Source: Henricia sp. BOLD:AAB3569
Lineage: Eukaryota > Echinodermata > Asteroidea > Spinulosida > Echinasteridae
Reading direction: 5' to 3'
Assembly (NCBI GenBank): GCA_037783545.1
Contig: JBBELK010000096.1
Location: 1,488,001-1,552,000, forward strand
Length of the DNA: 64,000 bases
Part shown: piece after piece, positions 43,293-64,000 of the stretch
Layout of the letters: every line of letters begins with the position of its first letter
Numbering within the stretch: position 1 is the stretch's first letter
Notes under the pieces: model-generated
What the model saw: the letters and a program-made list of their open reading frames with translations, nothing else
Databases searched by the model: none
What the model was told of the DNA's origin: nothing
Program-made: the position numbers and the translations under genes

Positions 43293-43349
43293 CAGGGAAC
43301 TAGTCTATTTCGGTTCAGAATCTGAACCGAAATAAACTAGTTCCCTGTC
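43291..43349. repeat. 59-bp near-perfect palindrome
   Basis: The left arm GACAGGGAACTAGTCTATTT-CGGTTCAGA and the right arm TCTGAACCG-AAATAAACTAGTTCCCTGTC pair at 28 of 29 positions around a single A at 43320. It lies exactly at the end of the non-LTR 3' fragment tail. Confidence 0.95.
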
Positions 43350-44668: not shown

Positions 44669-45173
44669 GGGGTTAGTTGGAACATTTTTCACAAAATCGA
44701 CTATAAAACACTAACATAATTTCTAGGGTTAATGTAAAATCATATTGATTTTGAAGGATTGAGGAGTGTTGGGGTTAAAGAAAAAACAACCGTACCACTT
44801 CAAGCATACATAATTATTTGGGCTACAAATTAATGGAGCTTATAAAATGTTACGCCTCGCTGGTTTCTCGGATAATCCACCTTGAACATGACCATGTCAG
44901 CTGTTCCGACTAGCCCCACCTATGGGGTAAGTTGAAACATGGTATGTTGTCAATTAAAAACTACTATAACTTCTGTGATCACCCTAATTATCAAGGCATA
45001 CACTTAAGCTGTAAATTGAGGTGCTAATCAACTCTTTGGGGTACAGGGAGTCATTGACAACTGCTCACTTACAATGCAGTGAAACGTGTATATAGATGCC
45101 ACCTTCGGGACTGGCAACTATAAACAGGTGGCCTGTTTCATGTGGTCAATGAAACATGTTCCAACTAGCCCCC
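44669..45173. repeat. Two 249-250-bp units, each bounded by an inverted 16-bp motif
   Basis: GGGGTTAGTTGGAACA (44669) and its complement TGTTCCGACTAGCCCC (ending 44917) bound the first unit. GGGGTAAGTTGAAACA (44924) and TGTTCCAACTAGCCCC (ending 45173) bound the second. A fifth motif lies near 45361. The interiors are diverged but share words such as AAAAC(T)ACTA near the start. This may be a tandemly duplicated TIR element, or two insertions of one family. Confidence 0.6.
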
Positions 45174-45452
45174 TCATTTTGTTCCAAATAAACCCGCTGG
45201 CCTGTTTAAAAACAGGGACTACAATTTGACATCTCGTTAACCTCATTTTGTACTCAAAAACTAGTCGAGTGAATCTATGAACATCATTAGCATACAATGC
45301 AATATTTCTTAAAAATAACTAATGCCGTGGAAGAAAATATAAATGTTTCAACATACCCACTGTTCCAAGTAACACCTCTCTTCTACTAATGGTGTATAGC
45401 TGTATTTATATCAGCCGTGCGCAGCACGCTGGTATATTGTGATCGTCCGATT

Positions 45453-45475
45453 TCTTTCTTTCTTTCTTTCTAAAT

Positions 45476-45514
<39 letters not shown>
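45453..45514. repeat. (CTTT)n microsatellite, target of the Tx1-like array (left end)
   Basis: About fifteen CTTT repeats with one interruption, TAAATTC, near 45470. The first retrotransposon copy begins directly after it. The same interruption recurs between copies 1 and 2 and after copy 3. Confidence 0.97.
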
Positions 45515-45577
45515 CGTGGCGGTCGTGTTTCTATCGAGCTCCGGAAAACGTAAGAAAATCTTAGCTTTTGACTTATT

Positions 45578-45609
45578 CCGGTTACAAATTTTTATACTGT
45601 TGTAACCGG
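45578..45609 (+). promoter_or_regulatory. Conserved 5'UTR hairpin, copy 1
   Basis: CCGGTTACAA and TTGTAACCGG form a 10-bp perfect stem with a 12-base loop. Copy 2 has the same stem (52538-52569). Copy 3 has CCGGTTACAA with TTGTGACCGG (59330-59360), where the single change keeps pairing as G-U. The role may lie in translation or RNP assembly; this is inferred. Confidence 0.6.
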
Positions 45610-45710
45610 TATAACATACAGATTCTGCTGGACCATCCTCGATTTGTCAGGTTTTATTAATTTTGTGTATTTTTAAGGTTTATTTTTGTTCATTTCTGTT
45701 ACGTTTCCTC

Positions 45711-45770
45711 ATGGCCGGCCGTTGCGGTCAGTCGTGCGGAACCCGCCATGCAGGGTCAGCCCAGCACTAG
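45711..45770 (+). CDS. Upstream ORF of 19 codons overlapping the ORF1 start, copy 1
   Basis: The ATG at 45711 opens MAGRCGQSCGTRHAGSAQH and stops at TAG 45768-45770. It overlaps the ORF1 start codon (45748) by 23 bases in another frame. The same 19-codon frame, with the same stop, exists in copy 2 (52671-52730) and copy 3 (59462-59521). The ORF1 ATG has the better context (G at -3), so leaky scanning or reinitiation could set ORF1 levels. Part of the conservation comes from the ORF1 coding overlap. Confidence 0.5.
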   Translation: MAGRCGQSCGTRHAGSAQH

Positions 45771-47475
45771 CACGGCTGGCTCTGCTGGCTCCATTGTTCC
45801 TGGTGACGAACCCTTTCAGGGCGTCACCAGGGACAATGGTGTGTTTTTCAAAGCGGCTGACAATGTCTCCGTTCAAGGGTACATAGACGCCATTGCAAAT
45901 CAATTACCCCCACAATCTATCGTTTCGGCTTCAAGAATTTCTAATGGTCGCATTGCTTTTTACCTCAGCTCGAGACAGGCAGTCATCGAGGCGGTCCAAG
46001 ATGGCCTATCCTACGATGGCTCCTATCTCGAGCTGACTCCTCTTGTCCGCCCCACAACCCGATTAACTCTCTCCAATGTTTACCCTGAGATACCGAACGG
46101 AGTCATTGCCAGCCAGCTCTCATCGTTTTGTAAGGTGGTGTCTCAGATTCGGCCCATACCCCTCGGACTAAAAAACAAAAATCTATCTCACATTATGAGT
46201 TTCCGGCGACAGGTTCAAGTTATTCTCAGTACAAATGTCACTCCCCCCGACCACATACATTTTTCTAATTCCGGAACCAACTATCGCGTTTTTCTCTCCA
46301 CCGAGTCTGTTCGGTGCTTCTCCTGCCGGGAGTTTGGTCACGTTAGCAAAAACTGTAAAAAAAACCTCTCCTCCAATTCTGATAACCAACCCGACCCATC
46401 CACTGACAATCCACTCAACCCACCACCCACGTTCATGCACGGTAAAAACAAGAAATCAGATCCTAAACACCCTCCAAAACAATCAAAATCCTCCTCTACC
46501 GCCCCTCCCATTCCTGCTCCGCGCTCGACCGTGGCCGGTGGCGGCCCGTCCACGTCGGCTGGTTTTTCGGGCTCGGCCGGCGCACCGAGCGTGGCCGGCA
46601 CTCTGCAGCCGGCCAGTGCCGGTGGGCTTGCCGGGTCCGCGCCGCCGAATTCCACCGGGGCCGGGTCCGTCGCGGGCGCGTCTTGCGCGGATGCCACCCC
46701 TCCTCGACCAAAATCCACACACGTTCCTTGTTCTCCCCCCGCCCCTTCCAGAACCTTCTCTGAAGCCCTTACCAAAAGAAAACAACCTCCATCTACCTCT
46801 CCTCCGTCTCCCTTCAAAATGACCACACTTAAATCCTCTTCACCAGTTCGAAAAATAGCTCGACGTTCTCCTTCCGTGTCTCAGGCACTTGATATCCCAA
46901 CACCAGTTCCACCCCCCTCCCCTTTTCCCCCTCCCGTGTCCACTCCCCTTACCCCTCCCGTATCCACCCCTTTTGTCCCCAGCCCCACACCTCCTCCCCT
47001 CACCCCTATCTCTGTCCCCATACTACCCTCTTTTTCCTCCGCCCCTACCACCCCTCAACCGGGCCCCAGTGCCTCTGCTTCTGATCCCAGTTCCACTGCC
47101 CCTCTTCCCAGTGGCCCACCCGTACCAAATCCTACCTCCGTCCTTCCTATGTCACAAACGTCAGTTATTTCTACTCCTGGCAGCGGAAGCACTGACACGG
47201 ACTCGATGACCTGGGAGGATAGTCAGACGTGTCAGACTGAAGAAGATCTCACGTCTGACATCCTCCCAGTTACACATGGCCCCCTGTCGTCGGAACAACT
47301 CTTAAAATTTCTCACCTCCGTTAAAGCCCGCAAGAGGCCGGCCAAGATTGCCAGAACATTTACCTCTGACATCCCTGGGCTGGCCAAACAACTCAAAACC
47401 CTTCGAACACACGCTCCCCTGGGTAAAAACATGCTGCAGCGGATACATAAACTCGCCACCACACTAGGTAAATAA
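45748..47475 (+). CDS. ORF1 protein of the Tx1-like element, copy 1 (575 aa)
   Basis: ORF1p is expected to bind element RNA and act as its chaperone in the RNP. The N-terminal third is globular. A CCHC zinc knuckle, CFSCREFGHVSKNC (C190, C193, H198, C203), is followed by a basic NKKSDPKHPPK stretch. A long low-complexity region rich in Pro, Ser, Ala and Gly follows (about residues 230-480). A conserved C-terminal block comes last: DSMTWEDSQT, SEQLLKFLTSVKARKRPAKI and LRTHAPLGKNMLQRIHKLA. A single zinc knuckle is fewer than in some Tx1-clade ORF1 proteins. The start at 45748 is shared by all three copies. The stop is 19 bp before the ORF2 ATG. Confidence 0.93.
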   Translation: MQGQPSTSTAGSAGSIVPGDEPFQGVTRDNGVFFKAADNVSVQGYIDAIANQLPPQSIVSASRISNGRIAFYLSSRQAVIEAVQDGLSYDGSYLELTPLVRPTTRLTLSNVYPEIPNGVIASQLSSFCKVVSQIRPIPLGLKNKNLSHIMSFRRQVQVILSTNVTPPDHIHFSNSGTNYRVFLSTESVRCFSCREFGHVSKNCKKNLSSNSDNQPDPSTDNPLNPPPTFMHGKNKKSDPKHPPKQSKSSSTAPPIPAPRSTVAGGGPSTSAGFSGSAGAPSVAGTLQPASAGGLAGSAPPNSTGAGSVAGASCADATPPRPKSTHVPCSPPAPSRTFSEALTKRKQPPSTSPPSPFKMTTLKSSSPVRKIARRSPSVSQALDIPTPVPPPSPFPPPVSTPLTPPVSTPFVPSPTPPPLTPISVPILPSFSSAPTTPQPGPSASASDPSSTAPLPSGPPVPNPTSVLPMSQTSVISTPGSGSTDTDSMTWEDSQTCQTEEDLTSDILPVTHGPLSSEQLLKFLTSVKARKRPAKIARTFTSDIPGLAKQLKTLRTHAPLGKNMLQRIHKLATTLGK

Positions 47476-47494
47476 TTTTCTTTCTCTCTTTGCA

Positions 47495-50400
47495 ATGGAG
47501 TTTCTGTATCTGCTTTATGCCTGCACGATGACACTGTCATTGATAACTTTAAACACTGGAGGCTGTGCCTCTCCCATCAAAAATGCATCTTTGCAAGTTC
47601 TTTTTGACAGGGTTTATCATAACCCTGACATCATCCTTCTTCAAGAAACATATAATCTTAACGACAAAAACTCGTGCTGGAATATGTGGTCCCATACCCC
47701 GTATTGCTCTCCCGGCCTTACCATGGGGTCGGGAGTGACTACCCTTATCAATACTAGCAAAATTGACGTAATTTCTCACTCTTCTATCGTTGCCGGATAT
47801 GTTCATTACATTCATTTCAAATTCCAAGACTCTATTTACCACCTTTATAATACTTACATTCCTCAAAATGACAAAGACGCCCTTGGTGCTATTCAGTCCA
47901 TTGTGGACCACAGTTCCAGCATCGATGGCAGTGTCTTCGTTGCTGGTGATTTTAATTGTACTCTAAACCCAAGTCTCGATCGTCTGCGTACGACCATTGA
48001 ACGCAGGCCCAAAGTTTCGGTGGCTCTCAGAGACGCTGTTGGTGCACTGTCCCTCTGTGACGCCTGGCGCAGACTGAACCCCACCAAAACGGAGTTCACC
48101 TGGCTTCGAAACAATCCGGCGAACGTACACGGTGTTTTGAAAGCCAGGTTGGACCGTTTCTACATTCCCCCTCATCTCATCTCTTCGATTAGTTCTTCCT
48201 CTATTATCCCCTGTTCTCTCTCTGACCACAGTGCTGTACAGATTACCCTAAAAATTCCGACTAGTCTCCAGAAGGGAAGTGCCTATTGGCACTTTAACAA
48301 TTCTCTTCTGGAAGACGAAAATTACAAAGAAATTATACGTCACTTTTGGGGTGATTGGACAACCAAAAAGCGGGACTTCCCTGATCTAGCCTCGTGGTGG
48401 GATTTTGGGAAGTCCCACATAAAGTCCATCACCCAGATGTACAGCACTAAAGTGGCCAGAGAGAAACGGCAAAACTTTCTCAAACTTAATCAACAAATCA
48501 ACGAGCTTCAGTCTGCGCCAGACTTCACGCCCGAAGTCAAAGTTGCTCTTGCTGAACAAAGAGATAACTTAAATTTCCTTCTTAAATCCGAGGCTAAAGG
48601 CGCACTCGTCAGATCACGTTTCAAATTCTCTACTGAAATTGACACTTGCTCGACCTATTTCTTCAACCTTGAAAAGAATAATTCCACCTCCAAACACATC
48701 TCTCGGGTCAGACTCCCTTCCGGATATATTTCCGAAGACCCGACAGAAATCAAAACCCATATTCGTGACTTTTATAAATCACTTTACTCTCAAACCTCTA
48801 CAGACGAGGGCGCCTTCAGTGAACTCATTACCGGGATAAATCGGCTGGATCCTGCAGAGTCGGATGACCTCGATCGTCCTCTGACTCTGGAGGAACTTGA
48901 CCTCGCCGTTGGGCAACTTGGCAAAAACAAAACGCCCGGCCTCGATGGCCTCACTTCCGAATTTTTCCAATGCTTTTGGCCTGCTCTCAAAGACGACTTT
49001 CTTGCTGTTCTAAACTCATCTCTTGTTTCTGGTTCTCTTCCTCATTCGTTTAGACGGGGCGTCATCACTCTTCTTCCCAAAAAAGGGGATTTGGCCGATT
49101 TAGCCAACTGGCGCCCCGTCTCCCTTCTCAATACAGACTATAAGATTTTTGCCAAGTTGCTTGCCGGCAGGCTCAAGCAGTGCATTGGCAGCGTCATCGA
49201 CCCGGACCAGAGCAACTGTGTTCCAGGCCGATCCATACACAACAACCTAAATTTAATTCGTGACACTTTGTTTTATTGTAATGTTAATGATCTTCCCCTA
49301 GCCGTGGTCAACCTCGATCAGAAGAAAGCCTTCGATAACGTTGACCACGGCTACCTGTTCAATGTAATGAGAGCCATGGGCTTTGGGGACTGGTTCATTC
49401 GACACATCCAACTCTTATACAGCGGCACCGAGAGCCTCGTCAAAGTCGGTGGCTCCCTGACCGCTCCCTTCTCTTTTGAGAAGGGAATAAGGCAGGGATG
49501 CCCGCTTTCGGGGCTGTTGTACACTATCGCCATCGAACCTTTGCTTCATAACTTCCGACAGAAAATTTCCGACTTCTCTCTTCGTATTCCCGGCTCCAAC
49601 ACCCCGTTGGTCGTGTCGGCGTACGCAGACGACGTGACAGTGTTCATTACCAGCAATGCAGGCTTTGGCGTCGCGGAAAGGGTCTACGGCCTTTTCAGGG
49701 ACGCCTCCGCAGCATGTTTAAACACCCAAAAGTCCCAGGGTTTGTGGGTCGGTTCCTGGACCGGACGAAATGACAAGCCCTTAAATTTTTCCTGGAACAG
49801 TGAAGGCCTCGCTTTTCTTGGAGTTCATCTTGGCAATACTAATAATTACAACAATCAAAACTGGACTAAATGCAAAGAAAAACTCAACAAAACTCTCTCT
49901 TCCTGGTTCCGTCTTCTTCACACCCTCTCATTCAAAGGCAAGGTTATCGTTGCCAATCAACTCGCCGCCTCCAAAATTTTTCACAGCCTGGCTGTCTTGT
50001 CACCCCCTGATAACGTCGTAGATGAACTCCAGAAAAGCCTTGTCAATTTCGTCTGGTCCAACAAGAGACACTACCTGAAAAAAGATACTTTGTATCAAAA
50101 GCCTGACAATGGAGGGATAGGTCTAGCATGCCTCCAAGCACGCATCATGACCTTCAGACTCGGTACTGCGCAACGTTTTCTCAATCTTTCCCCCCACCCC
50201 GCCTTTTCCTTTATGTCATATTTCCTTCGCCAGTACCGAAAACTAAATTACGACTTTCAACTTTTCCACCTTCGTACCGATCCCAAATTCCACACCAGTC
50301 TCCCCGTTTTCTACAGTGACATTTTGCGTGCTTGGACGGCGTCCGGAGCTCGCATTGAAGCGCGACCCGACGATATCAACCACGTCATGAACCTGCCCCT

Positions 50401-51388
50401 AAATAACGCCCTCATTAACGATGCAGCTGGTGATGGGGAAATCCCACCCGTGCGGCTCAAAGCGTGCGGGACCACCCTTGTCCGCCACATTATTGACGTC
50501 AAGACCGGACACTGGATAGATGGCCGTGCTCTCCTTTCATCTTTCCGTGGACTTCGCCCACCGTCTCTTCGCCTCCTACAACAAGACCTTCACCGCCTTC
50601 ACCTCACTCTCCTTCAAGCTTTTCCCGTGTTCTTCTGTGCAGATGGTCTCCGTGACTCCCAGTTTGACATCGGAGACATCCTAAGATACCCCGACTCTCC
50701 CGTCGCCTTCAATTTACCATCTGCACAGAAAGGCCTCTCCGCACCATCCAAAGCTATCTACGCCAATTTCATCCAAGTCCTCACCTCTCCTCCTTCATCT
50801 TGTTCTTCACACTGGCACAGAAATGGTTTCCTCGACTCCGGTACTCCAATCCAATGGACAAACATTTATAAGCTTCCCACTTCAAAGAAAGAGGGCGACG
50901 TCCAATTTCAACTGCTTCACAACTTTCTGCCCTCCCTGACTGTCCTTCATCATATCAACCCGGACATTGCCTCCACCTGCGGATGGTGCGGAGAGAGAGG
51001 CACGATACAACATCTCTTCATCCAGTGCCCGGCCATCCAACCAACCCTTCGCCTCCTCGCTTCTCTCCTGGCTGACCTCCTCCCGTCTCTACATCTCAAT
51101 TTTGACATCTACTGGGCTCTGATCCCGCACGCGAAGGGCCGCACGAAAGGGGCGGTCCACCTAGCTAACTACCTCATCATCAGCTGTAAAAACGTCATTT
51201 ACTTTCTCTACCGTACTTCCCATTTTGTCGATCCTAAAATTGTCTGGCTCCAGCGCATCAAAAACAAGATTATCATTGAGTTCTCTTTTTACAAATCGAT
51301 CAACAACGTTAATGGTTTTCTGACCAAGTGGTCTTTCAAAAACACCCTCTTCACTTTCAATGACAACAGAATGACGTGGTTGATATAG
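47495..51388 (+). CDS. ORF2 polyprotein (endonuclease-RT-CCHC), copy 1 (1297 aa, intact)
   Basis: Residues about 10-250 form an AP-type endonuclease: N20 in LITLNTGG, E51 in ILLQET, D152/N154 in AGDFN, and D244-H245 in SDHSAV. The reverse transcriptase spans about 450-790: KNKTPGLDGLTSEFFQCF, LPKKGDLADLANWRPVSLLN, D608 in LDQKKAFDNVDH, RQGCPLSGLLY, and the catalytic pair D712-D713 in SAYADDVTVF. The C-terminus has a CCHC motif (C1162, C1165, H1173, C1178). Together these would nick the target and copy the RNA there by target-primed reverse transcription. All catalytic residues are present and the frame is uninterrupted. The domain order and motifs place it in the L1/Tx1 group. Confidence 0.96.
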   Translation: MEFLYLLYACTMTLSLITLNTGGCASPIKNASLQVLFDRVYHNPDIILLQETYNLNDKNSCWNMWSHTPYCSPGLTMGSGVTTLINTSKIDVISHSSIVAGYVHYIHFKFQDSIYHLYNTYIPQNDKDALGAIQSIVDHSSSIDGSVFVAGDFNCTLNPSLDRLRTTIERRPKVSVALRDAVGALSLCDAWRRLNPTKTEFTWLRNNPANVHGVLKARLDRFYIPPHLISSISSSSIIPCSLSDHSAVQITLKIPTSLQKGSAYWHFNNSLLEDENYKEIIRHFWGDWTTKKRDFPDLASWWDFGKSHIKSITQMYSTKVAREKRQNFLKLNQQINELQSAPDFTPEVKVALAEQRDNLNFLLKSEAKGALVRSRFKFSTEIDTCSTYFFNLEKNNSTSKHISRVRLPSGYISEDPTEIKTHIRDFYKSLYSQTSTDEGAFSELITGINRLDPAESDDLDRPLTLEELDLAVGQLGKNKTPGLDGLTSEFFQCFWPALKDDFLAVLNSSLVSGSLPHSFRRGVITLLPKKGDLADLANWRPVSLLNTDYKIFAKLLAGRLKQCIGSVIDPDQSNCVPGRSIHNNLNLIRDTLFYCNVNDLPLAVVNLDQKKAFDNVDHGYLFNVMRAMGFGDWFIRHIQLLYSGTESLVKVGGSLTAPFSFEKGIRQGCPLSGLLYTIAIEPLLHNFRQKISDFSLRIPGSNTPLVVSAYADDVTVFITSNAGFGVAERVYGLFRDASAACLNTQKSQGLWVGSWTGRNDKPLNFSWNSEGLAFLGVHLGNTNNYNNQNWTKCKEKLNKTLSSWFRLLHTLSFKGKVIVANQLAASKIFHSLAVLSPPDNVVDELQKSLVNFVWSNKRHYLKKDTLYQKPDNGGIGLACLQARIMTFRLGTAQRFLNLSPHPAFSFMSYFLRQYRKLNYDFQLFHLRTDPKFHTSLPVFYSDILRAWTASGARIEARPDDINHVMNLPLNNALINDAAGDGEIPPVRLKACGTTLVRHIIDVKTGHWIDGRALLSSFRGLRPPSLRLLQQDLHRLHLTLLQAFPVFFCADGLRDSQFDIGDILRYPDSPVAFNLPSAQKGLSAPSKAIYANFIQVLTSPPSSCSSHWHRNGFLDSGTPIQWTNIYKLPTSKKEGDVQFQLLHNFLPSLTVLHHINPDIASTCGWCGERGTIQHLFIQCPAIQPTLRLLASLLADLLPSLHLNFDIYWALIPHAKGRTKGAVHLANYLIISCKNVIYFLYRTSHFVDPKIVWLQRIKNKIIIEFSFYKSINNVNGFLTKWSFKNTLFTFNDNRMTWLI

Positions 51389-52424
51389 TCACCACACTCC
51401 CCTTCTCGATTCTGGGGTCTCTTCTCCCCGGGGCAGCTGCTTGAGTCTGTCGAGACATGGCGTATGCCACTGTTCTGGGGAGAGGATGCCCCACTACGAA
51501 CCTCCTCCCGGGTTCTGTCTTGGGATTGGCCCCTTTGGGGGTGCTCTCTCTTTGGAGCAGCAGCTCGAGAAATCGAGACATGGCAGTGGCCACTGCTCTG
51601 GGGAGGGGGTGCTTCCGCCTGGGGATTTCCCGGGGCTGTGCCCGGGAGGGGTGTCCTTACTTTTCTTTTTTGCCGGGTGGGACTTGCGGTCGGCTTCGGC
51701 ATGTTTGTCCCGGGGTCGGCTGCTCGACTCGTCGAGACGTGGGGTATCCCTCCGGCCTTGGGGCGGGCTGAACTACGTCGACAACTCGCTGGTGCCTGGA
51801 TTGGTTGCTCGACCGTTCTAGGTGCTGGCGAGTGCTTTGTTCCCACCCGTGCTTTGTCCACACCTCATCCCTTCCCGGTGGACGGAGGAGGGTAGCTGTG
51901 CTATGTCATAAGCACAGCGCGGTGTTTTTACCGCCCTCTACCGTCCGCCTTTCCCTGCCTGTGCCGCCACGTGCGGGTGCTCTGCGCCTGCACACTGTGG
52001 TTGGCGGCCCCGGCTTTTCCCCGCCCATCTCCTTTTGGAATGGGCACTCTCTTCTCTCCCTTCCCCTCCCCTGGATTTCAGTTTATTCAAGGCGAACATT
52101 GTGTTTTCTACTGATTGTTTTTCTTTGTTTAATTATTTTCCTAATGTAAAACGGAAAGTACCGTTAATTTATATTTATTGAAAGGTAATGTTTTCATGAT
52201 TGTATTTCCTTGTTTTTAAAAACGGAAAGTACCGTTTCTGTTTATTTGATGATCCTTGTTTATTATTTCCTGTTTAACAAATACTTTTGTTCAAAGTACA
52301 ATTTGGTTTTTCCTTATTTGCATCCTTGTGTAATTATTTAAGTTAATTGTTTTTAGTTTGTAAATATTGTTCTTTTGTTTACTGAGGATGTAATAAAGTT
52401 TTTCTTGGAAAAGTCAAAAAAAAG
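51389..52424 (+). other. 3'UTR of copy 1 with repeated hairpin modules
   Basis: Three related modules start near 51431, 51554 and 51714. Each has a CTCGA...TCGAGAC stem (for example GCTCGAGAAATCGAGAC) followed by ATGGC or GTGGG and a CT(C)TGGGG word. Further down, AACGGAAAGTACCGTT, a 5-bp-stem inverted repeat, occurs twice 71 bp apart (52150-52165 and 52221-52236). AATAAAG at 52393 precedes the A-rich end. These parts are kept in the other copies and may be the RNA signal recognised by ORF2p. Confidence 0.7.
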
Positions 52425-52435
52425 TCTTTCTAAAT

Positions 52436-52474
<39 letters not shown>
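52425..52474. repeat. (CTTT)n junction between copies 1 and 2
   Basis: CTTTCTAAATTCTTTC followed by about ten CTTT units. The TAAATT interruption is the same as on the left of copy 1. Confidence 0.97.
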
Positions 52475-52707
52475 CGTGGCAGTCGTGTTTCTATCGAGCT
52501 CCGGAAAACGTAAGAAAATCTTAGCTTTTGACTTATTCCGGTTACAAATTTTCATACTGTTGTAACCGGTATAACATACAGATCCTGCTGGACCATCCTC
52601 GATTTGTCAGGTTTTATTAATTTTGTGTAATTTTAAGGTTTATTTTTGTTCATTTCTGTTAAGTTTCCTCATGGCTGGCCGTTGCGGTCAGTCGTGCGGA
52701 ACCCGCC

Positions 52708-54370
52708 ATGCAGGGTCAGCCCAGCACTAGCACGGCTGGCTCTGCTGGCTCCATTGTTCCTGGTGACGGCCCCTTTCCGGGCGTCACCAGGAACAATGGC
52801 GTGTCTTTCAACACTACATTGATGTTATATCAACTCAATTACCATCACAATCCATACTGTCCGCATCAAGAATTTCCAATGGTCGTATTGCTTTCTATCT
52901 CAGCTCGAGACAGGCAGTCATCGAGGCGGTCCAAGATGGCCTCTCCTACGATGGCTCCTATCTCGAGCTGACTCCACTCGTTCGTCCTACTACCCGGTTG
53001 ACTCTTTCAAACGTCTACCCAGAAGTTCCGAACGGAGTCATTGTCGGTCAGCTTTCCTCTTTCTGTAAGGTCGTGTCTCAGATTCGGCCCATACCCCTGG
53101 GACTAAAAAACAAAACCCAATCGCACATAATGAGTTTCCGACGACAGGTCCAAGTTCTTCTCGATCCCACCATTAATCCTCCCGACCACATTAATTTTAT
53201 TTATTCAGGAACAAATTATCGTGTCTTTCTCACTACCGAGTCGGTTCGGTGTTTCCACTGCCGGGAGTTCGTCCACATCAGCAAGAACTGCAAAAAACAC
53301 CACCCCTCCATCCCCGACAACCAACCCGACCCGACCACAGACAACCCGCTCAATCCACCTCCCACGTTCATGCACAGTAAAAACAAAAAATCCGATCCAA
53401 AACATCCTCCCAAAAAATCTAATCAGTCCACGACCGCCCCTCCTAAACCTGCCCCGAGGTCGACGGTGCCTGCGAGCGCCCCGCCCCGGTCGGCCGGTGT
53501 TTCGGGCCCGGCTGGTACTGCCAGCACGCACGGTGCTGACGGTGCGGCTGGTGCTCCGCGGCCGGCCGGTGCCGGTGGGCCTGCTGCGGGCGCCGCGAGC
53601 GCTGGTGCCACCCCCCTTGGACAGAACACTGCGCACATTTATGGCTCTCCTCCCGCCCCCTCCAGGACTTTTTCGGAGGTCCTTACTAAACGAAAAAAAC
53701 CTTTAAATGCCTCTCCCCCGACCCCCTTCAAAATGACCACCCTCAAACCTTCTTCCCCTGTACGAAAAATGGCCCGTAATTCTAAGAGCCCTAAATCTGC
53801 GCAGTCTCCTTCAGTCTCTCAGGCTCTCAACACCCCAACACCAGTTCCTCCCCCTCGCCCTTTTCCCCTCCCGTCCCCACCCCTCCTGCCCACATCCCTA
53901 CCCTGGTCACTCCCTCTCATATCCTTCCTCCTCCTGTCCCCGCCCCTATTCCCGCACCGCGCTCCATTGCCTCTGCCGCTCCCTCCCCTCAGCCGGGTCC
54001 CAGTGCCCGTGTCCCCGCCCCTCCTTCACTAAATCCCACCACTCCCATCTCCATGTCACAAACATCGGTTCTTTCTACTCCCGGCGGCGGAAGCACCGAC
54101 ACGGACTCGATGACCTGGGAGGATACTCAGACGGAAGAAGATCTTTTGTCTGACATCCTCCCAGTCACCCGCGGCCCCCTGTCGTCGGAACAACTCATGA
54201 AATTCTTGTGCTCCGTCAAATCCTGCAAGAGGCCAGCCAAGATTGCCAGAAAGTATACTTCTGACATTCCTGGGCTGGCCAGACAACTCAAAACTCTCCG
54301 CACGCACGCTCCCCTGGGTAAAAACATGCTGCAGCGGATACATAAACTCGCCACCACGCTTGGTAAATAA
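52708..54370 (+). pseudogene. ORF1 of copy 2, frameshifted
   Basis: The start (MQGQPSTSTAGSAGSIVPGD) matches copy 1. A deletion of about 30 bases after the NGVSFN codons (near 52811) shifts the frame. Good coding resumes by 52998 and includes the zinc knuckle CFHCREFVHISKNC. A second shift occurs in the proline-rich region near 53870. The conserved C-terminus (54053-54370) is again in another frame. Amino-acid identity to copy 1 in the knuckle region is roughly 80% by eye, much lower than in ORF2. Confidence 0.9.
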
Positions 54371-54390
54371 ATTTATTTTCTTTGTTTATA

Positions 54391-57300
54391 ATGGAGTTTC
54401 TGTATCTGCTGTATGCCTGCACGATGACACTGTCATTGATAACTTTGAACACTGGAGGCTGTGCCTCTCCCATCAAAAATGCATCTTTGCAAGTTCTTTT
54501 TGACAGGGTTTACCATAACCCTGACATCATCCTTCTTCAAGAAACATATAATCTTAACGACAAAAACTCGTGCTGGAATATGTGGTCCCATACCCCGTAT
54601 TGCTCTCCCGGCCTCACCATGGGGTCGGGAGTGACTACCCTTATCAACACAAGCAAAATTGACGTAATTTCTCACTCTTCTATCGTTGCCGGATATGTTC
54701 ATTACATTCACTTCAAATTCCAAGACTCTATTTACCACCTTTATAATACTTACATTCCTCAAAATGACAAAGACGCCCTTGGTGCTATTCAGTCCATCGT
54801 GGACCACAGTTCCAGCATCAATGGCAGTGTCTTCGTTGCTGGTGATTTTAATTGTACTCTAAATCCAAGTCTCGATCGTCTGCGTACGACCATTGAACGC
54901 AGGCCCAAAGTTTCGGTGGCTCTCAGAGACGCTGTTGGTGCACTGTCCCCCTGTGACGCCTGGCGCAGACTGAACCCCACCAAAACGGAGTTCACCTGGC
55001 TTCGAAACAACCCGGCGAACGTGCACGGTGTTTTGAAAGCCAGGTTGGACCGTTTTTACATTCCTCCTCATCTTATCTCTTCGATTAGTTCTTCATCTGT
55101 TATCCCCTGTTCTCTCTCTGACCACAGTGCTGTGCAGATTACCCTAAAAATTCCGACTAGTCTCCAGAAGGGAAGTGCCTATTGGCACTTTAACAATTCT
55201 CTTCTGGAAGACGAAAATTACAAAGAAATTATACGTCACTTTTGGGGTGATTGGACAACCAAAAAGCGGGACTTCCCTGATCTAGCCTCGTGGTGGGATT
55301 TTGGGAAGTCCCACAAAGTCCATCACCCAGATGTACAGCACTAAAGTGGCCAAGGAGAAACGGCAAAACTTTCTCCAACTTAATAAACAAATCAACGAGC
55401 TTCAGTCTGCGCCAGACTTCACGCCCGAAGTCAAAGCTGCTCTTGCTGAACAAAGAGATAACTTAAATTTCCTTCTTAAGTCCGAGGCTAAAGGCGCACT
55501 CGTCAGATCACGTTTCAAATTCTCTACTGAAATTGACACTTGCTCTACCTATTTCTTCAACCTTGAAAAGAATAATTCCACCTCCAAACACATCTCTCGG
55601 GTCAGACTCCCTTCCGGAAATATTTCCGAAGACCCGACAGAAATCAAAACTCATATTCGTGACTTTTACAAATCACTTTACTCTCAAATCTCTACCGACG
55701 AGGGCGCCTTCAGTGAACTCATTACCGGGATAAATCGACTGGATCCTGCAGAGTCGGATGACCTCGATTGTCCTCTGACTCTGGAGGAACTTGACCTCGC
55801 CGTTGGGCAACTTGGCAAAAACAAAACGCCCGGCCTCGATGGCCTCACTTCCGAATTTTTCCAATGCTTTTGGCCTGCTCTCAAAGACGACTTTCTTGCT
55901 GTTCTAGACGCATCTCTTGTTTCTGGTTCTCTTCCTCATTCATTTAGACGGGGCGTCATCACCCTTCTTCCCAAAAAAGGGGATTTGGCCGATTTAGCCA
56001 ACTGGCGCCCCGTCTCCCTTCTCAATACAGACTATAAGATTTTTGCCAAGTTGCTTGCCGGCAGGCTCAAGCAGTGCATTGGCAGCGTCATCGACCCGGA
56101 CCAGAGCTACTGTGTTCCGGGCCGATCCATCCACAACAACTTAAATTTAATTCGTGACACTCTGTTTTATTGTAATGTCAATGATCTTCCCCTAGCCGTG
56201 GTCAACCTCGATCAGAAGAAAGCCTTCGATAACGTTGACCACGGCTATCTGTTCAATGTAATGAGAGCCATGGGCTTTGGGGACCGGTTCATTCGACACA
56301 TCCATCTCTTATACAGCGGCACCGAGAGCCTCGTCAAAGTCGGTGGCTCCCTGACCGCTCCCTTCTCTTTTGAGAAGGGAATAAGGCAGGGATGCCCGCT
56401 CTCGGGGCTGTACACTATCGCCATTGAACCCTTGCTTCATAACTTCCGACAGAAAATGTCCGACTTCTCACTTCGTATTCCCGGCTCCAACACCCCGTTG
56501 GTCGTGTCGGCGTACGCAGACGACGTGACAGTGGAAAGGTCTACGGCCTTTTCAGGGACGCCTCCGCAGCATGTTTAAACACTCAAAAGTCCCAGGGTTT
56601 GTGGGCCGGTTCCTGGACCGGACGAAGTGACAAGCCCTTAAATTTTTCCTGGAACAGTGAAGGCCTCGCTTTTCTTGGAGTTCATCTTGGCAATACTAAT
56701 AATTACAACAATCAAAACTGGACAAAATGCAAAGAAAAACTCAACAAAACTCTCTTATCCTGGTCCCGTCTTCTTCACACCCTCTCATTCAAAGGCAAGG
56801 TTATCATTGCCAATCAACTCGCCGCCTCCAAAATTTTTCACAGCCTGGCTGTCTTGTCACCCCCCGATAACGTCGTAGATGAACTCCAGAAAAGCCTTGT
56901 CAATTTCGTCTGGTCCAACAAGAGACACTACCTAAAAAAAGATACGTTGTATCAAAAACCTGACAATGGAGGGATAGGTCTAGCATGCCTCCAAGCACGC
57001 ATCATGACCTTTAGACTCGGTACTGCGCAACGTTTTCTCAATCTTTCCCCCCACCCCGCCTTTTCCTTTGTCATATTTCCTTCGCCAGTACCGAAAACTA
57101 AATTACGACTTTCAACTTTTCCACCTTCGTACCGATCCTAAATTCCACACCAGTCTCCCCGTTTTCTACAGTGACATTTTGCGTGCTTGGACGGCGTCCG
57201 GAGCTCGCATTGAAGCGCGACCCGACGATATCAACCACGTCATTAACCTGCCCCTAAATAGCACACTCATGGACGATGCAGCTGGTGATGGGGAATCGCC

Positions 57301-58246
57301 TCCCGTGCGGCTCAAAGCGTGCGGGGCCACTCTCGTCCGTCACCTGCTAGATCCAGCAACAGGACACTGGATGGATGGCCACGCTCTTCTTTCGCCTTTC
57401 CGTGGACTTCGTCCCCCCTCTCATCGCCTCTTGGAACAAGACCTTCACCACTTTCACCTCGCTCTTCTTCAAGCTTTTCCTCCCATTTTCTGTGCAGATG
57501 GCCTGCAAGGCCCCCGGATGAACACTGAGAATGTTCCAACATACCCCGACTCTGCGGTTTGCTTCATTTTGCCATCTGCACAGAGTGGACTCTCCGCACC
57601 ATCCAAAACCATCTACGGCCTTTTCATCACGCTCCTCAACTCACCTGTTTCATCGTCTTTAGCTTCTCATTGGCACAGACTTGGCTTTCTGGACTCTTCC
57701 ACTTCAATACAATGGACAGAAATATATCGCTTGCCAACTTCAAAGAAAGAAGGAGATGTGCAATTTCAACTTCTGCACAACTTCCTACCCTCCCTCACTG
57801 TTCTTCATCATTTCAACCTGGACATCTCCTCCAATTGTGGATGGTGCGAAGAGCGCGGAACGATTCAGCATCTCTTCATCCAGTGCCCGGCCATCCAACC
57901 CACCCTCGACCTTCTCGCTTCTCTTCTGGCTCGTCTTCTCCCGTCTCTACATCTCAATTTTGACATCTACTGGGCTCTAGTCCCGCACGCAAAGAGCCGC
58001 ACAAAAGAAGCCGTCCGCCTCGCCAACTACCTCATCATCAGCTGCAAAAATATCATCTACTTTTTGTACCGTACTTCCCACTTTGTTAACCCTAAAACGG
58101 TTTGGCTCCAAAGAATAAAGAACAAAATTCTCATCGAATTTTCCTTTTACAAATCTGTAAATAGTATTGATAATTTTCTTCGCAAGTGGTCTTTCAATGA
58201 CACTCTCTTTACTTACAATAATAACGGAATGACGTGGTTGATATAG
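54391..58246 (+). pseudogene. ORF2 of copy 2, several frameshifts
   Basis: The endonuclease (54391-55311) differs from copy 1 by about three residues in 310. A 2-base loss near 55312 (GKSHK instead of GKSHIK) shifts the frame. The RT continues in 55301-56578 with the YADD pair. It also has a one-codon deletion at GLYTIAIEP and a deletion just after YADDVTV that truncates it. A third segment is 56599-57141. Near 57068 a 2-base loss shifts the frame again, and the C-terminus with CGWCEERGTIQHLFIQC ends at 58246. From about 57265 onward identity to copy 1 falls to roughly 80%. Confidence 0.93.
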
Positions 58247-59239
58247 TCACCACACTCCCCTTCTTGATTTTGGGGTCTCTTCTCCCCGGGGCAGTTGCTC
58301 GAGTCTGTCGAGACATGGCGTATGCCACTGCTCTGGGGAGAGGATGCCCCACTACTAACCTCCTCTCGGGTATTGTCCTGGGATTGGCCCATTTTGGGGG
58401 TGCTCTCTCTTTGGAGCAGCAGCTCGAGAAATCGAGACATGGCAATGGCCACTGCTCTGGGGAGGGGGTGCTTCCACCTGGGGCTCGTCCCGGGGATGTG
58501 CCCGGGAGGGGGTCCTTACATTTTCTCCTTTTTGCCGAGTGGGACTTGCGGTCGGCTTCGGCTTGCTTGTCCCGGGGTCGGCTGCTCGACTCGTCGAGAC
58601 GTGGGGTATCCCTCCGGCCTTGGGGCGAGCTGAACGACGTCGACAGCTCGCTGGTGCCTGGATCGGTTGCTCGACCGTTCTGGGTGCTGGCGAGTGCTTT
58701 TTTCCCACCCGTGCTTTTCCCCACCCCATCCCTTCCTGGTGGACGGAGGAGGGTTGCTGTGCTCTGTCATAAGCACAGCGCGGTGTTTTTTACCGCCCTC
58801 TACCGTCCGCCTTTCCCTGTCTGGGCCGCCACGTGCGGGTGCTCTGCGCCTGCACGCTGTGGTTGGCGGCCCCGGCTTTCCCCCGCCCATCTCCAGATTT
58901 TGTTTTCTCCTGATTGTTTTTCTTTGTTTAATTATTTTCCAAATGTAAAACGGAAGTACCGTTAATTTATATTTATTTAAAGGTAATGTTTTCATGATTG
59001 TATTTCCTTGTTTTTCTTTACTTGTTTCAAAATGGAAAGTACCGTTAATTTCTGTTTATTTGATGATCCTTGGTTATTATTTCCTGTTTAACAAATACTT
59101 TTGTTCAAAGTACAATTTGTTTTTCCTTAGTTGCATCCTTGTGTAATTATTGAAGTTAATTGTTTTTTAGTTTGTAAATATTGTTCTTTCGTTTACCGAG
59201 GATGTAATAAAGTTTTTCTTGGAAAAGTCAAAAAAAAAG
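58247..59239 (+). other. 3'UTR of copy 2
   Basis: The same three CTCGA-hairpin modules are present, near 58297, 58418 and 58576. The two AACGGAAAGTACCGTT words are degenerate here (AACGGAAGTACCGTT near 58948 and ATGGAAAGTACCGTT near 59032). AATAAAG lies at 59207. Identity to copy 1 is high in the first part. Confidence 0.7.
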
Positions 59240-59265
59240 TCTTTCTTTCTTTCTTTCTTTCTTCT
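59240..59265. repeat. (CTTT)n junction between copies 2 and 3
   Basis: About five CTTT units, ending CTTCTCGTGG at the start of copy 3. The TAAATT interruption is absent here. Confidence 0.95.
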
Positions 59266-59498
59266 CGTGGCGGTCGTGTTTCTATCGAGCTCCGGAAAAC
59301 GTAAGAAAATCCTAGCTTTTTAAAGCTTTCCGGTTACAAATTTTATATCATTGTGACCGGTTAGATATACAGATTCAACTAGACCATCCTCTATTTGTCA
59401 GGTTTTCTCATTTTGTAGTAATTTTAGTGTATATTTTGGTTCATTCCTTTGGGTTTTTGCTATGGCTGGCCGTTACGGTCAGTCAAGCGGAACCCGCC

Positions 59499-61234
59499 AT
59501 GCAGGGTCAGCCCAGCACTAGCACGGCTGGCTCTGCTGGCTCCATTGTTCCTGGTGACGAGCCTTTTACGGGTGTTACCAGGAACAATGGCGTGTCTTTC
59601 AATGCGGCTGACAATGTCTCCATTCGGGAATACATGGACGCCATCTCCAAACAACTATCCGCACAAACAATTGTTTCCGCTTCACGGATTTCTAATGGCA
59701 GAATTGCTTTCTACCTCAGCTCGAGACAGGCGGTCATCGAGGCGGTCCAAGATGGACTGTCCTACGATGGCTCCTATCTCGAGCTGACCCCTCTAGTCCG
59801 ACCCACAACTCGCCTCACCCTTTCGAACATATACCCCGAAATCCCGAATGGAGTCATTGCGGCCAACCTGTCTTCCTTTTGTAAGATAGTGTCGCAGATC
59901 AGGCCTACCCCCTTGAGACTCAAACACAAAGACCTTTTCCATGTAATGAGCTTCCGACGACAGGTTCAAGTCCTCCTCAACCCGAATGCCAACCCTCCCA
60001 ATCACATAAATTTTACGTATTCCAATACTAACTATCGAGTTTTCCTGTCTACTGAGTCGGTTCGGTGTTTCTCTTGCCAGGAGCTTGGCCACATTAGCAA
60101 AAACTGCAAGAAACAGAACCACTCTAATCCCGACAATCAACCTGACCCCGTCAATGACAACCCTCTCAATCCACCACCCGTCTTCATGCACGGTAAAAAC
60201 AAAAAATCCGATCACAAACACCCTCCCAAAGTCTCAAAACCTAAACAGCCCAACCCTTTTGTGACCGCCCCTTCCAAACCCGTTCCTCCCAAACCAGCTC
60301 CCCGCTCGACCGTGCCTGCCGGCGGCCCGTCCTCTCACCCCGGTGGGAAAGGCAGGCCGTCCTCGGCCGGGGTCCCGGGTGCCGGTGCGCCGCCGGCCCC
60401 GGTCCTTTCCGTCCCCGTGCCTGGTACGAGCGCGGCCAGCGGAAATACAACCCTCTCCCAAGAGAATGTGCATATTCTTGGCTCTCCTCCCCCTCCTTCG
60501 AGAACTTTCTCCGAAGTCATCACCAAACGGAAACAACCTCCCTTAAATTCTTCTCCATCTCCTTTCAAACTGACCACCCTCAAATTCTCATCCCCTGTTC
60601 ACAAAATTGCCAAAACGACAGAAAGCCCAAAATGTGCACTTTCTCAAACCCAGGATGAAACCCAAGTCCCCCCACCATCTCCTTTTGCCCATCCCGTCCC
60701 CAACCCTTCCCCCACCCCTTCCCTCTCCCCTGTCCCCATCCCCACACCTGCCCCCTCCCCCACACCTGCCACCTCCCCCACACCTGCCCCCTCCCCCGTC
60801 GCCACCCCAACTCCTACACATGTCCCGCCCACACCTGCCTCCGCCCCGCCCATTTCCGTGCCTTCCAGCCCTATTCCTGGCCCCTCTTCCCCCACTCCCC
60901 CCGCCCCTTCACCCCAATGTCTTCCTCACAAACACTTTCAACTCCCGGCGATAGAAACACTGACACCGACTCCATGCAATGGGAGGATACTCAGACGGAT
61001 GATGATCTGACGTCTGATATCCTCCCTGCATCCAATGGCACCCTGTCGTCGGTGGAGCTCATAAAATTCCTTGCCACAGTTAAATCCCGGAAGAAACCAG
61101 TCCAGGTTGCAAATAAATTCACTTCCAACATACCTGGACTGGTCAAACAACTAAAACCTCTACGAAATTACGCGCCCCTTGGCAAGGCAATGCAGCAGAG
61201 GATACAAAAGCTCCTTGTACGTTTAGATAACTAA
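59499..61234 (+). pseudogene. ORF1 of copy 3, one frameshift
   Basis: From the ATG at 59499 the frame is open to about 60910 and contains the knuckle CFSCQELGHISKNC and the Pro-rich region. This includes a tandem TPAPSPTPATSPTPAPSP stretch. A single shift near 60910, in the Pro-rich region, moves the conserved C-terminus (60917-61234: DSMQWEDTQT, NYAPLGKAMQQRIQKL) to another frame. Apart from this shift ORF1 is intact. Confidence 0.88.
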
Positions 61235-61255
61235 GTACCTTTTTTACTTTCTTCA

Positions 61256-62500
61256 ATGGATGCTTTCTTACGTGTATTTAAGGCCTGCGTCATGGCATTG
61301 TCGCTGCTCACACTTAACACGGGGGGATGTTCTTCCCCTATCAAAAATATCTCTGTTCAAATATTTACTAACAAGCGACACTACCTTAAAACACCTATGT
61401 TATATAGAAAACCTGACAATGGAGGACTTGGTCTGACATGCCTCCAAGCACGCATCATGACTTTCAGATTCAGTACTACTCAACGCTTTCTAAACCTCTC
61501 ATCTCATCACGCCTTTTCCTTCATGGCTCACTTCCTACGACAATACCGAAAACTCAATTATGATTACGAACTTTTCCATTTTCAAACCGACCCCAAATAT
61601 CATACCAGTCTTCCCGTGTTCTATGCCGACATTTTGTGTGCTTGGACGGCCTCCGGAGCGCGACTAGAAACACGTCCGGATGATATCAGCCACGTCATAA
61701 ATTTGCCAATTAATAGCGCCCGCGGTGACGATGCAGCTGTTGATGGGGAGGCGCCACCCGCGCGGCTCAAAGCGTGCGGGGTCTCGCTAGTCCGCCAAGT
61801 CTTTCTACCGGACACTGGATAGACAATCAAACGCTCATCGCCTCTTTCTCTGGTTTACGTCCTCCATCTCTCCGTCCTCTACATCAAGACCTCCAGCATC
61901 TCCGTTCCTGTCTTCTTCAAACTTTTCCAGATATTTTCTGTACGGATGGACTCCGTCACGCCCAGGCTGAAATTGGAAACATCCCCAGACACCCGGTCTC
62001 CGCCGTAAATTTCGGCCTGTCATCCGTACAGAATGGACTCTCCGCACCATCTAAAATCGTCTACAACAACCTTGTCACCACACTGCACCCACCGGCTTCG
62101 CCATCTCCTTCCTACTGGCACAAACTGGGCTTTATCGACCCGTCCACTTATATTCAGTGGAGTGAAATCTTTCGGTTGCCAACGTCAAAAAAGGAAGGAG
62201 ATGCATGTGCAGTTCAGACTTCTTCACAATTTTCTTCCATCTCTGACAGTCCTTCATCAAATCTACCCGGATATCGCCTCAACCTGCGGATGGTGCGGAG
62301 AGCGAGGAACCATCGAACATCTCTTTATCCAATGTACGGCCATCCAACCAACTTTACGTCTTCTCGCTACTCCTCTCAATCGTCTTCTGCCGTCTCTTCA
62401 CCTTCACCTTCGACGTCTACTGGGCGCTGATCCCGCATGCAAAGAGCCGCGCTAAGGAAGCAGTTCGTATTAACAATGAAATGACGTGGCTGATATAATC
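61256..62500 (+). pseudogene. ORF2 of copy 3, endonuclease and RT deleted
   Basis: The first 35 codons (MDAFLRVFKACVMALSLLTL, NTGGCSSPIKNISVQ) are joined directly to NKRHYLKTPMLYRKPDNGG, which corresponds to residue about 858 of copy 1. All endonuclease catalytic residues after N20 and the whole RT are missing. The C-terminal part is frameshifted near 61790 and 62200 but retains CGWCGERGTIEHLFIQC. A second deletion just before the end joins AVRINNE to MTWLI, ending at TAA 62498-62500. Confidence 0.92.
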
Positions 62501-63102
62501 GCCACCTATATTGTTTTTCTTTTTGGGGTCTCTTCTCCCCGGGGCAGCTGCTCGAGTCTGTCGAGACATGGCGTATGCCACTGCTCTGGGGGGAGAGGAT
62601 GCCCCACTACGAACCTCCTCCCGGGTGCTGTCCGGGGATTGGCCCCTTTTGGAGGTGCTCTCTCTTTGGAGCAGCAGCTCGAGAAATCGAGACATGGCAA
62701 TGGCCACTGCTCTGGGGAGGGGGTGCTTCCGCCCGGGGATCGTCTCGGGGCTGTGCCCGGGAGGGTTTTGTTTTCTCCTGATTGTTTTTCTTTGTTTAAT
62801 TATTTTCCAAATGTAAAAGTACCGTTAATTTATATTTATTTAAAGGTAATGTTTTCATGATTGTATTTCCTTGGTTTTCTTTACTTGTTTCAAAACGGAA
62901 AGTACCGTTAATTTCTGTTTATTTGATGATCCTTGGTTATTATTTCCTGTTTAACAAATACTTTTGTTCAAAGTACAATTTGTTTTTCCTTAGTTGCATC
63001 CTTGTGTAATTATTTAAGTTAATTGTTTTTTAGTTTGTAAATATTGTTCTTTCGTTTACCGAGGATGTAATAAAGTTTTTCTTGGAAAAGTAAAAAAAAA
63101 AG
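62501..63102 (+). other. 3'UTR of copy 3, shortened
   Basis: Only the first two CTCGA-hairpin modules remain (near 62546 and 62668); the third and following GC-rich DNA are deleted at about 62766. The AACGGAAAGTACCGTT word is kept at 62895, and AATAAAG near 63069. Confidence 0.7.
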
Positions 63103-63147
63103 TCTTTCTTTCTTTCTTTCTTTCTTTCTAAATTCTTTCTTTCTTCG
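63103..63147. repeat. (CTTT)n microsatellite, right end of the array
   Basis: About six CTTT units, then TAAATTC and two more units before unique sequence TCGGGCAAACGG begins. Confidence 0.95.
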
Positions 63148-64000
63148 GGCAAACGGTCACGTGACATCACATATCTGCTAATAACTGCCAAACGCCGTGG
63201 CCGATTTCAACCAGATTTGGACAGAGTCTTCCTTGACCGGAGTCCTATCTTGGGTGACCACCACGTGATGTCAATGATCAACTACTGGTCACTACTGGTC
63301 ATTTTCTTCAAAATTGTAAAATGCTTCTTCTTCCACAGTTTTGACCCAATTAATGTCAAATGTGGTCAGTAACATCTTTGGACCAAGCTACATATGGGTT
63401 GTTCACAGAATTTGGCCATCGGCTACCTAATGGTCAGTACGGGTCATTTTCTTTGGAATGACCCAAATGCTATATGTGCCAATATCCTTTGTCGTTTTCA
63501 GCCAATTTTGGACAGTATCTTCGTTGATCCGAGTCCCATCTTATACAAAATGCTTCTTAAGAGTTCTATAGGTCATTGGTCAGTCCAGTGGCCGAAATTT
63601 TCAACTTGGTCTGGTCGTATGGCAACATGAAGGTCATTTTCGGGGTCAGCGAGGAAGCGCAATTTTTTTGAGGTGGTGGTCAGTGATCAGCAGTGGCCGA
63701 AATTTTAAACTTCGTCCAAAATGGACTTTGGGTGGTATTTTTGGAATCTACGTTCAATGGCGAGCTAAAAAATACCAAACATCGACAAAACTGACCACTG
63801 GTCAGTTTTGGCCGAAATTGTAAACTTTGTCATGTAGACTAAAAAAGTTACATGCGAAGAACTTACACAAATCAGAATAACAAAAAATGCATTTTTTTTG
63901 TCCAGTCACTATTGGAACTCGCTGTTTGTTTATTTCATCAATGACAAAATAAAATTCAAAAGTGCGATACCCTCACCTGGTTTTAGAAATCACTATCGGG
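63148..64000. repeat. Diverged repeated sequence right of the array
   Basis: Two units related over about 300 bp start near 63203 (TTCAACCAGATTTGGACAGA) and 63499 (TTCAGCCAATTTTGGACAGT); each continues with a GAGTC(C)CATCTT-like word. TGGCCGAAATTTT(C/A)AACTT recurs near 63590, 63694 and 63808, and GGTCATTTTC recurs several times. No protein or RNA gene is supported. Confidence 0.6.

Follow-up and report, generated by a model that had tools for sequence, protein, structure and literature searches.

A stretch of 64 000 nucleotides of the genome of the sea star Henricia sp. BOLD:AAB3569 (positions 1488001-1552000 of contig C96, JBBELK010000096.1, within a genome of 740.7 Mb; 'the window' below, with coordinates counted from its first letter) contains three head-to-tail copies of a long interspersed nuclear element (LINE) on the plus strand, spanning 45516-63091. 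We are highly confident that the copies of this array inserted independently of one another, that their LINE family is specific for (TTTC)n and that they lie inside a Helentron; the microsatellite around the copies is a tetranucleotide repeat internal to this dispersed, non-autonomous Helentron, which is similar to a Helentron-associated interspersed element (HINE). The best reading of the LINE family is that of an L1-group element with Tx1-like habits, specific for (TTTC)n and living as a nested parasite of the Helentron. A preliminary description of this DNA had proposed an L1-group LINE that targets (CTTT)n and can stack in one locus; these parts stood, while it had overlooked that the microsatellite belongs to a dispersed Helentron.

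The LINE array and its proteins

Copy 1 (45516-52414, 6.9 kb) is full length and is followed by a C-A8-G tail; copy 2 (52476-59228, 6.75 kb) is also full length, with broken frames; copy 3 (59267-63091, 3.8 kb) represents a third subfamily and has an internal ORF2 deletion of ∼2.4 kb. Each copy starts with GTGGC[G/A]GTCGTG, preceded by a (TTTC)n tract, a T and one more base, and ends with GGAAAAGT followed by an A-run, a G and again (TTTC)n. Between the copies, past each A-rich tail, there is (TTTC)n alone: about 50 bp between copies 1 and 2 (52425-52475) and about 26 bp between copies 2 and 3 (59240-59266). The array is bordered by plus-strand (TTTC)n tracts to the left of copy 1 (45451-45514) and to the right of copy 3 (63103-63143); these two tracts and the first junction contain one TAAATTC interruption each. 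The array was read from the genome assembly sequence. The earlier claim of three same-orientation copies in (CTTT)n, stacked in one locus, is thus borne out in the window, and direct LINE-LINE junctions were found at further loci as well.

Two intact open reading frames (ORFs) had been attributed to copy 1, and both are indeed open on the plus strand. ORF1 (45748-47475, 575 aa) has one CCHC zinc knuckle at aa 190-203, a weak match below the Pfam cut-off. L1-type ORF1 proteins combine an RNA-binding fold with such a knuckle; the predicted model of this ORF1 (mean predicted local distance difference test score 41) had a strand and helix order like that of an RNA recognition motif, but this order is unreliable, and the model was too poor for use. 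ORF2 (47495-51388, 1297 aa) has an apurinic/apyrimidinic (AP)-type endonuclease and a reverse transcriptase with YADD (matches to Exo_endo_phos and RVT_1), as well as a C-terminal zf-RVT match below the cut-off. Among solved proteins its closest match was human LINE-1 ORF2p (E = 2e-78), with R2 at 8e-23. Judged by these matches, the (TTTC)n family qualifies as an L1-group non-long-terminal-repeat (non-LTR) retrotransposon, its AP endonuclease and reverse transcriptase probably being nearest to L1 ORF2p. That the LINE is sequence specific, as also claimed earlier, agrees with the genome-wide placement of its 5′-ends (see below): for 63 of 70 the neighbour is the target tract or the tail of a further LINE. 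Target-specific insertion is a trait of the Tx1 clade.

Both ORFs of copy 2 were matched only as pieces in differing frames; copy 3 has lost ∼800 codons of the endonuclease-reverse transcriptase region and has three stops within the matched pieces. Genome-wide, ORF2 was scored at 36 places (of 3349 first-look candidates), and 25 of them had no internal stop. Among those on contigs with ends of the (TTTC)n family, 16 of 26 were stop-free, at 71-100% identity. The first ∼55 bases of the LINE (45516-45570 in the window) are nearly invariant among 14 copies of several subfamilies and are promoter-like; this invariant start is followed by an inverted repeat, CCGGTTACAA...TTGTAACCGG (45578-45609).

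The host Helentron and its insertion site

The left end of the host (45407-45450, plus strand) consists of a hairpin formed by the 5′ subterminal inverted repeat (subTIR) and its inverted repeat (TATATCAGCC...GCTGGTATA), with a spacer to CCGA. The right part (63144-64000, plus strand) starts with TTCGGGCAAACGGTCACGTGACATCAC and continues past the window; the 3′ subTIR, hairpin and end are found at C96:1552578-1552616, the end being 616 bp outside the window. The same flanks, TATATCAGCCGTGCGCAGCACGCTGGTATATTGTGATCGTCCGA on the left and TTCGGGCAAACGGTCACGTGACATCAC on the right, recur past the microsatellite across loci. In the genome we found the right arm at 175, the left arm at 154 and the far right terminus at 182 places (≤3 mismatches), about 100 of each being listed. 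Thirty-seven distinct upstream 25-mers, some of them from duplicated loci, stop at the left end, with T at position −1 in 37/37. As the DNA upstream of the left arm varies between loci, the host is a dispersed mobile element.

The subTIRs are ATATCAGCC (5′) and GGCTGATAT (3′), the latter beginning 39 nt before the end; a 3′ palindrome, GTGCTTCGTGAAGCAC, lies 12 nt from the end. After the terminal CTCTAG the right flanks have T at +1 in 27/27 distinct cases and at +2 in 25/27. Among 30 loci fetched by the right arm, 21 empty copies were parsed, and in each of them the four-nucleotide microsatellite beside the left end consists of (TTTC) units. The available portions of PMC4067079 give as HINE criteria the subTIRs, with the 3′ one 38-60 bp from the end, and a palindrome 8-35 bp from the 3′-end; on its sequence features, the host repeat matches the description of a HINE or non-autonomous Helentron as found in those portions and in the corresponding ones of PMC7492417. 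These features, together with the absence of a target duplication (see below), rule out a miniature inverted-repeat transposable element or other transposon with terminal inverted repeats as the host. A plain genomic microsatellite is ruled out too, the flanks at many loci being one repeat.

The Helentron itself sits in an outer high-copy repeat (44401-45406, plus strand). A search with 44401-45400 gave 1741 candidates; among those that were scored, 40 other places matched at 91-97%. One paralogue, L104, is free of the Helentron and reads GCTGTATTTCGATAATT, while the filled site in the window reads GCTGTATT-TATATC...CTCTAGT-TCGATAATT; in comparison with this one empty paralogous site, insertion occurred at T|T with no target duplication. 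Given the Helentron-free paralogue and the filled site, the nesting order at the locus is outer repeat, then Helentron, then the three LINEs. The outer repeat ends a region (39893-45406) which also contains an ORF for a gag-type aspartyl protease (39893-40816).

Junction phase and probable target duplication

All 34 LINE 5′-ends with flank sequence have a (TTTC)n tract upstream, in agreement with the earlier proposal that (CTTT)n is the immediate target. The LINE ends are fixed in repeat phase on both sides, and LINEs also stand against the tails of other LINEs. Twenty-nine of the 34 5′-ends are preceded by T and one further base (C, A or T), which in 28 cases stand immediately behind a complete TTTC unit. 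The five that remain read TAAATTCTTTC|GTGG, and three more junctions of this type were read from the 3′ side (L014, L028, L032). LINEs with the 5′ tip CGTGGCGGTCGTGTCTCTATC begin directly after TAAATTCTTTC in 8/8 cases read (L062, L099-L102, L014, L028, L032), as if they were aimed at the interruption or carried it along; in L062 this tip stands on a copy-1-like body.

On the 3′ side, an A-rich tail followed by GTC or GTA was seen in 30/30 junctions. In 27 of them whole TTTC units follow; of the other three, two run directly into the right arm and one into TGAATTC. The last two bases of GTC/GTA are suggested to be target, since the tail of a related family that lies in (TTTA)n reads GTA and then TTTA; GTA ends before TTTC (L009, L010, L032, L055) fit this reading poorly. 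The phase of the left and right tracts implies a target duplication of 3 mod 4, and two loci fit a 7-bp duplication when compared with existing empty alleles (C194 with L081, C1 with L069). We infer a target duplication of 7 bp or 7+4k bp, bearing in mind that microsatellite lengths change.

Genome-wide distribution of LINE ends

In a search of 740 Mb (≤3 mismatches) the 3′ end motif of the array was found at 45 places and the 5′ motif at 50, while the reversed motifs gave none; the end motifs are therefore not a product of chance. A second type of 3′-end was present at 15 places genome-wide, and a third in the flanks of L047 and L068. A shorter, 23-base 5′ motif matched 91 places, all listed: 70 with no more than one mismatch, which we took as the 5′ count of the family, and 21 with three mismatches, which were excluded (17 with the start GACGTGTTTCTCTCGAGCTCC, three on C490 and one on C2).

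Among the 70 5′-ends, 41 adjoin a Helentron left arm and 22 the tail of another LINE, so that the family effectively parasitizes the Helentron. The remaining seven were assigned to neither; on both strands, no listed arm lies closer to them than 200 bp. For an assignment by coordinates, the 5′-end and the left arm had to be on the same strand; 13 assignments were made by flank sequence instead, three of them to diverged arms on C62 and one to a remnant arm on C1338. All assigned copies are in the orientation of the Helentron (for those paired by coordinates, only one strand was considered). The 60 3′-ends of the two end types lead into a Helentron right arm (30), another LINE (21) or other DNA (3), with six unplaced; 10 of these labels came from flank sequence.

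Seen from the side of the host, 100 listed left arms (of 154) comprised 49 empty ones, with a right arm within 155 bp, 31 occupied ones, no more than 200 bp from a LINE 5′-end, and 20 that were neither. The 49 empty Helentrons show that the tract exists independently of the LINE. The repeat (CTTT)5 occurs at 475 places, the first 100 of which contain 47 tracts, 35 of them beside Helentron or LINE elements; the reversed pattern is the same repeat and hence no control. Four of the 12 other tracts lie 0.6-1.3 kb from a Helentron terminus, and the remaining eight, with no sign of a Helentron, had none of the LINE end motifs searched. This gives weak evidence, about 0.02 by hand arithmetic, for a preference beyond the repeat itself.

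Direct LINE-LINE junctions were found on C8, C104, C163/C1063, C231, C272/C798, C308, C886, C984 and C1018 and along C1338, where the longest run has nine 5′-ends in 48 kb and one more short copy seen in a flank only (L031). Contig pairs with equal spacing were C163/C1063, C272/C798, C242/C842 and C268/C518. In the two pairs compared, the outer left flanks match within C163/C1063 and, at another locus, within C272/C798; from this match, both pairs are probably unmerged haplotypes.

Kinship of the array copies

The closest kin of copy 1 are on C194, C622 and C1338, with identities of 99.4-99.7% in the compared end stretches: its 3′-end is 99.5% identical to C622 and C194, and its 5′-end 99.7% to C194. 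The 3′-end of copy 2 is 99.2% identical to C684, its 5′-end at most 96.7% identical to any other (C899). For copy 3 the 5′-end is 98.9% identical to a copy on C1338; its partly deleted 3′ stretch reaches at most 95.3%, and copy 2 is there at 93.8%. In trees of 30 5′-ends and 28 3′-ends (of 30; C308a and C227 were dropped as unalignable) the array copies fall into three separate groups. A tree with the array as a single clade was rejected by the approximately unbiased test, with P = 3.6e-07 for the 5′-ends and 1.0e-31 for the 3′-ends. The preliminary description had named one segmental duplication unit as a way in which its reading would fail; with kin at other loci and the single clade rejected, the array is not one such unit.

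Divergence between copies 1 and 2 ranges from 2 to 29% along their length: they are 97-98% identical in the endonuclease-reverse transcriptase core, 71-84% in ORF1 and 74-86% in the C-terminus of ORF2. On C684 a copy-1-like 5′-end is joined to a copy-2-like 3′-end. The contrast between core and ends and the mosaic on C684 indicate that subfamilies of the LINE recombine.

How the array was formed

We consider stacking by serial insertion probable. The ORF2 endonuclease would nick the (GAAA)n strand in a fixed phase, the 3′ OH would prime reverse transcription from the A-rich tail of the RNA, and a second nick would give the duplication of 7 or 7+4k bp. With (TTTC)n kept on both sides of the insert, the site would never be exhausted and arrays could grow; the Helentron provides many dispersed (TTTC)n tracts.

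Alternatively, alleles or Helentrons with different single LINEs could have undergone unequal crossing-over in the flanking (TTTC)n, which would have brought the copies together. This is rather unlikely, although several observations speak for it: the junction of copies 1 and 2, TAAATTC(TTTC)9T, resembles the left flanks of the stand-alone C684 copy and of copy 1, the array copies come from different subfamilies, and copies 1 and 2 are mosaic, so that recombination between copies does occur. However, empty alleles with three interruptions exist, 6 of 21 read (L077, L078, L079, L081, L084 and L091, the last with TGAATTC as one of its interruptions), and serial insertion therefore needs no exchange; moreover, both outer flanks of the window Helentron match a single empty paralogous site, which makes an exchange between different loci unlikely here. 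Tandem duplication of a single LINE followed by divergence was ruled out by kinship and trees and is hardly credible any more: the three copies on C62 do share a duplicated outer flank and group together, and copies 2 and 3 share 97.5% identity in their 3′ tails (366 bp), but no outer flank lies between the window copies, and three groups in both trees with the single clade rejected refute it, barring massive gene conversion.

It is also very improbable that the array is an assembly artefact. Such repeats are hard to assemble, and the array was seen in the assembly; on the other hand, C163 and C1063 carry the same two-LINE arrangement with a common outer left flank, another arrangement has equal spacing on C272 and C798 (13 532 and 13 531 bp between the arms), and copies 1 and 2 differ along their length. 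A different question is whether the LINE recognizes the Helentron itself, by arm sequences or chromatin, (TTTC)n alone being insufficient. The proportion of occupied tracts, 31 of the 80 decidable ones among the listed left arms as opposed to none of eight listed non-Helentron (TTTC)5 tracts (judged by the end motifs searched), would favour such recognition; still, eight tracts are a small sample, LINEs also lie between older LINEs, kilobases from the arms, and the related (TTTA)n family was read in unrelated flanks at three single places. We regard recognition of the Helentron as unlikely. Co-mobilization of Helentron and LINE was rejected: among the few loci available, no LINE together with its junction was seen with differing outer flanks.

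Several observations weigh against independent insertions into Helentron-borne (TTTC)n. Eleven 3′-ends have two or three mismatches, and of the six with known flank one (C599, L106) is placed in another kind of repeat, which contains CTTTC. Two 3′-ends (L023, L027) enter other DNA after a short (TTTC)n, with Helentron arms farther out; the 41 left arms include three diverged ones on C62 and a remnant at C1338:87220. As 35 of the 47 listed (TTTC)5 tracts are in a Helentron, the data do not distinguish a preference for Helentrons from one for the repeat (TTTC)n. Since some loci are haplotigs or segmental duplicates (C163/C1063, C272/C798, the three on C62 and probably several on C154), the number 70 overstates independent events. 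Copies 2 and 3 are closer to each other in their last 366 bp than in the rest of their length, and serial insertion is deduced rather than watched.

A related family in another tetranucleotide repeat and further ORF2 relatives

A related family with the 5′ motif GACGTGTTTCTCTCGAGCTCCCG lies head-to-tail on C518, where four 5′-ends are spaced 6.77-6.80 kb apart; both junctions read in this run (C518:383371-403743; L107, L108) are (TTTA)n. Members on C43, C871 and C881 (L109-L111) also lie in (TTTA)n, with unrelated outer flanks and no common host element; these (TTTA)n readings cover 5 of the 17 listed places with GACGTGTTTCTCTCGAGCTCCCG or its two-base variant.

ORF2 relatives at 70-71% identity were seen on C376 (five places), C28, C764, C103, C1493 and C24, 9 of 10 being stop-free; the contigs of these relatives had no match to the end motifs of the (TTTC)n family.

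One could speculate that a LINE lineage of tetranucleotide microsatellites changed its target between scattered (TTTA)n and (TTTC)n and that, on (TTTC)n, it turned into a parasite dedicated to one Helentron family. This host would then be a self-spreading landing pad, where several subfamilies that swap ORF1 and ORF2 ends around a common endonuclease-reverse transcriptase core compete and build up arrays of at least nine copies. We put this scenario forward tentatively, at slightly less than even chances.

Other features of the window

A tandem array with a 61-bp unit (∼54 copies, 95% matches) occupies 131-3423. A partial reverse transcriptase ORF of 382 aa is located on the minus strand at 8454-9602. 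The segment 31802-36504 is bounded by inverted repeats of ∼590 bp, 93% identical and each with a doubled 142-bp unit, and resembles an element with terminal inverted repeats. A tRNA scan of the 64-kb window found none.

DISCUSSION

The founding element of the Tx1 clade, Tx1L of Xenopus laevis, has its target in the DNA transposon Tx1D. It is like the present family in being a two-ORF LINE with an AP-type endonuclease and a target inside another transposon; here, however, a rolling-circle Helentron serves as host, with its tetranucleotide microsatellite as the target, and the copies stack head to tail. Kibi and Koshi, LINEs of the Tx1 group, are likewise microsatellite specific, for (TC)n and (TTC)n, respectively, whereas the target here is (TTTC)n within a mobile element, with a related family in (TTTA)n. 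The TRAS and SART elements, LINEs of the R1 group found at telomeres in telomeric repeats, share with our family a short tandem repeat as target, by which the site is regenerated; in our case the elements are of the L1 group and the repeats lie in dispersed Helentrons.

Transposons and microsatellites are both named among LINE targets in the available portions of PMC4640811 and PMC8869645, and the former lists the Tx1 clade as one of three target-specific LINE groups. The host resembles HINE, DINE-1 and Cg_HINE, as the parts at hand of PMC4067079 and PMC7492417 describe them, in the 5′ subTIR with a complementary inverted repeat, the four-nucleotide microsatellite in the left flank and the 3′ subTIR 38-60 bp from the end, and further in the 3′ palindrome, the T-rich site and the absence of a target duplication; a LINE in the microsatellite is not described in those parts. 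A lepidopteran Helitron-like family was tied to (GAAA)n microsatellites by Coates et al. (2010), going by the title cited in PMC4067079, and (GAAA)n is (TTTC)n on the other strand. That title has the element disrupting (GAAA)n and makes no mention of a LINE; the link of Helitron-like elements with (GAAA)n is therefore not new. In literature on Helentrons or Helitrons, microsatellites and non-LTR insertion we saw no such partnership in titles or abstract openings. The kind of association is known, while, as far as searched, a LINE family in the (TTTC)n of a Helentron is new, as are its pairing with a (TTTA)n family and the extent of stacking.

Long tandem arrays of LINEs, as a caution, can have origins other than segmental duplication. 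In this genome a partnership of mobile elements at two levels can be counted, with hosts that are empty, singly occupied or multiply occupied; the same genome also offers several subfamilies with an open ORF2 and a related family on a different tetranucleotide repeat. It thus becomes possible to test how LINE endonucleases switch microsatellite targets, whether a regenerating target allows unlimited growth of arrays, and whether parasitizing another transposon limits damage to genes.

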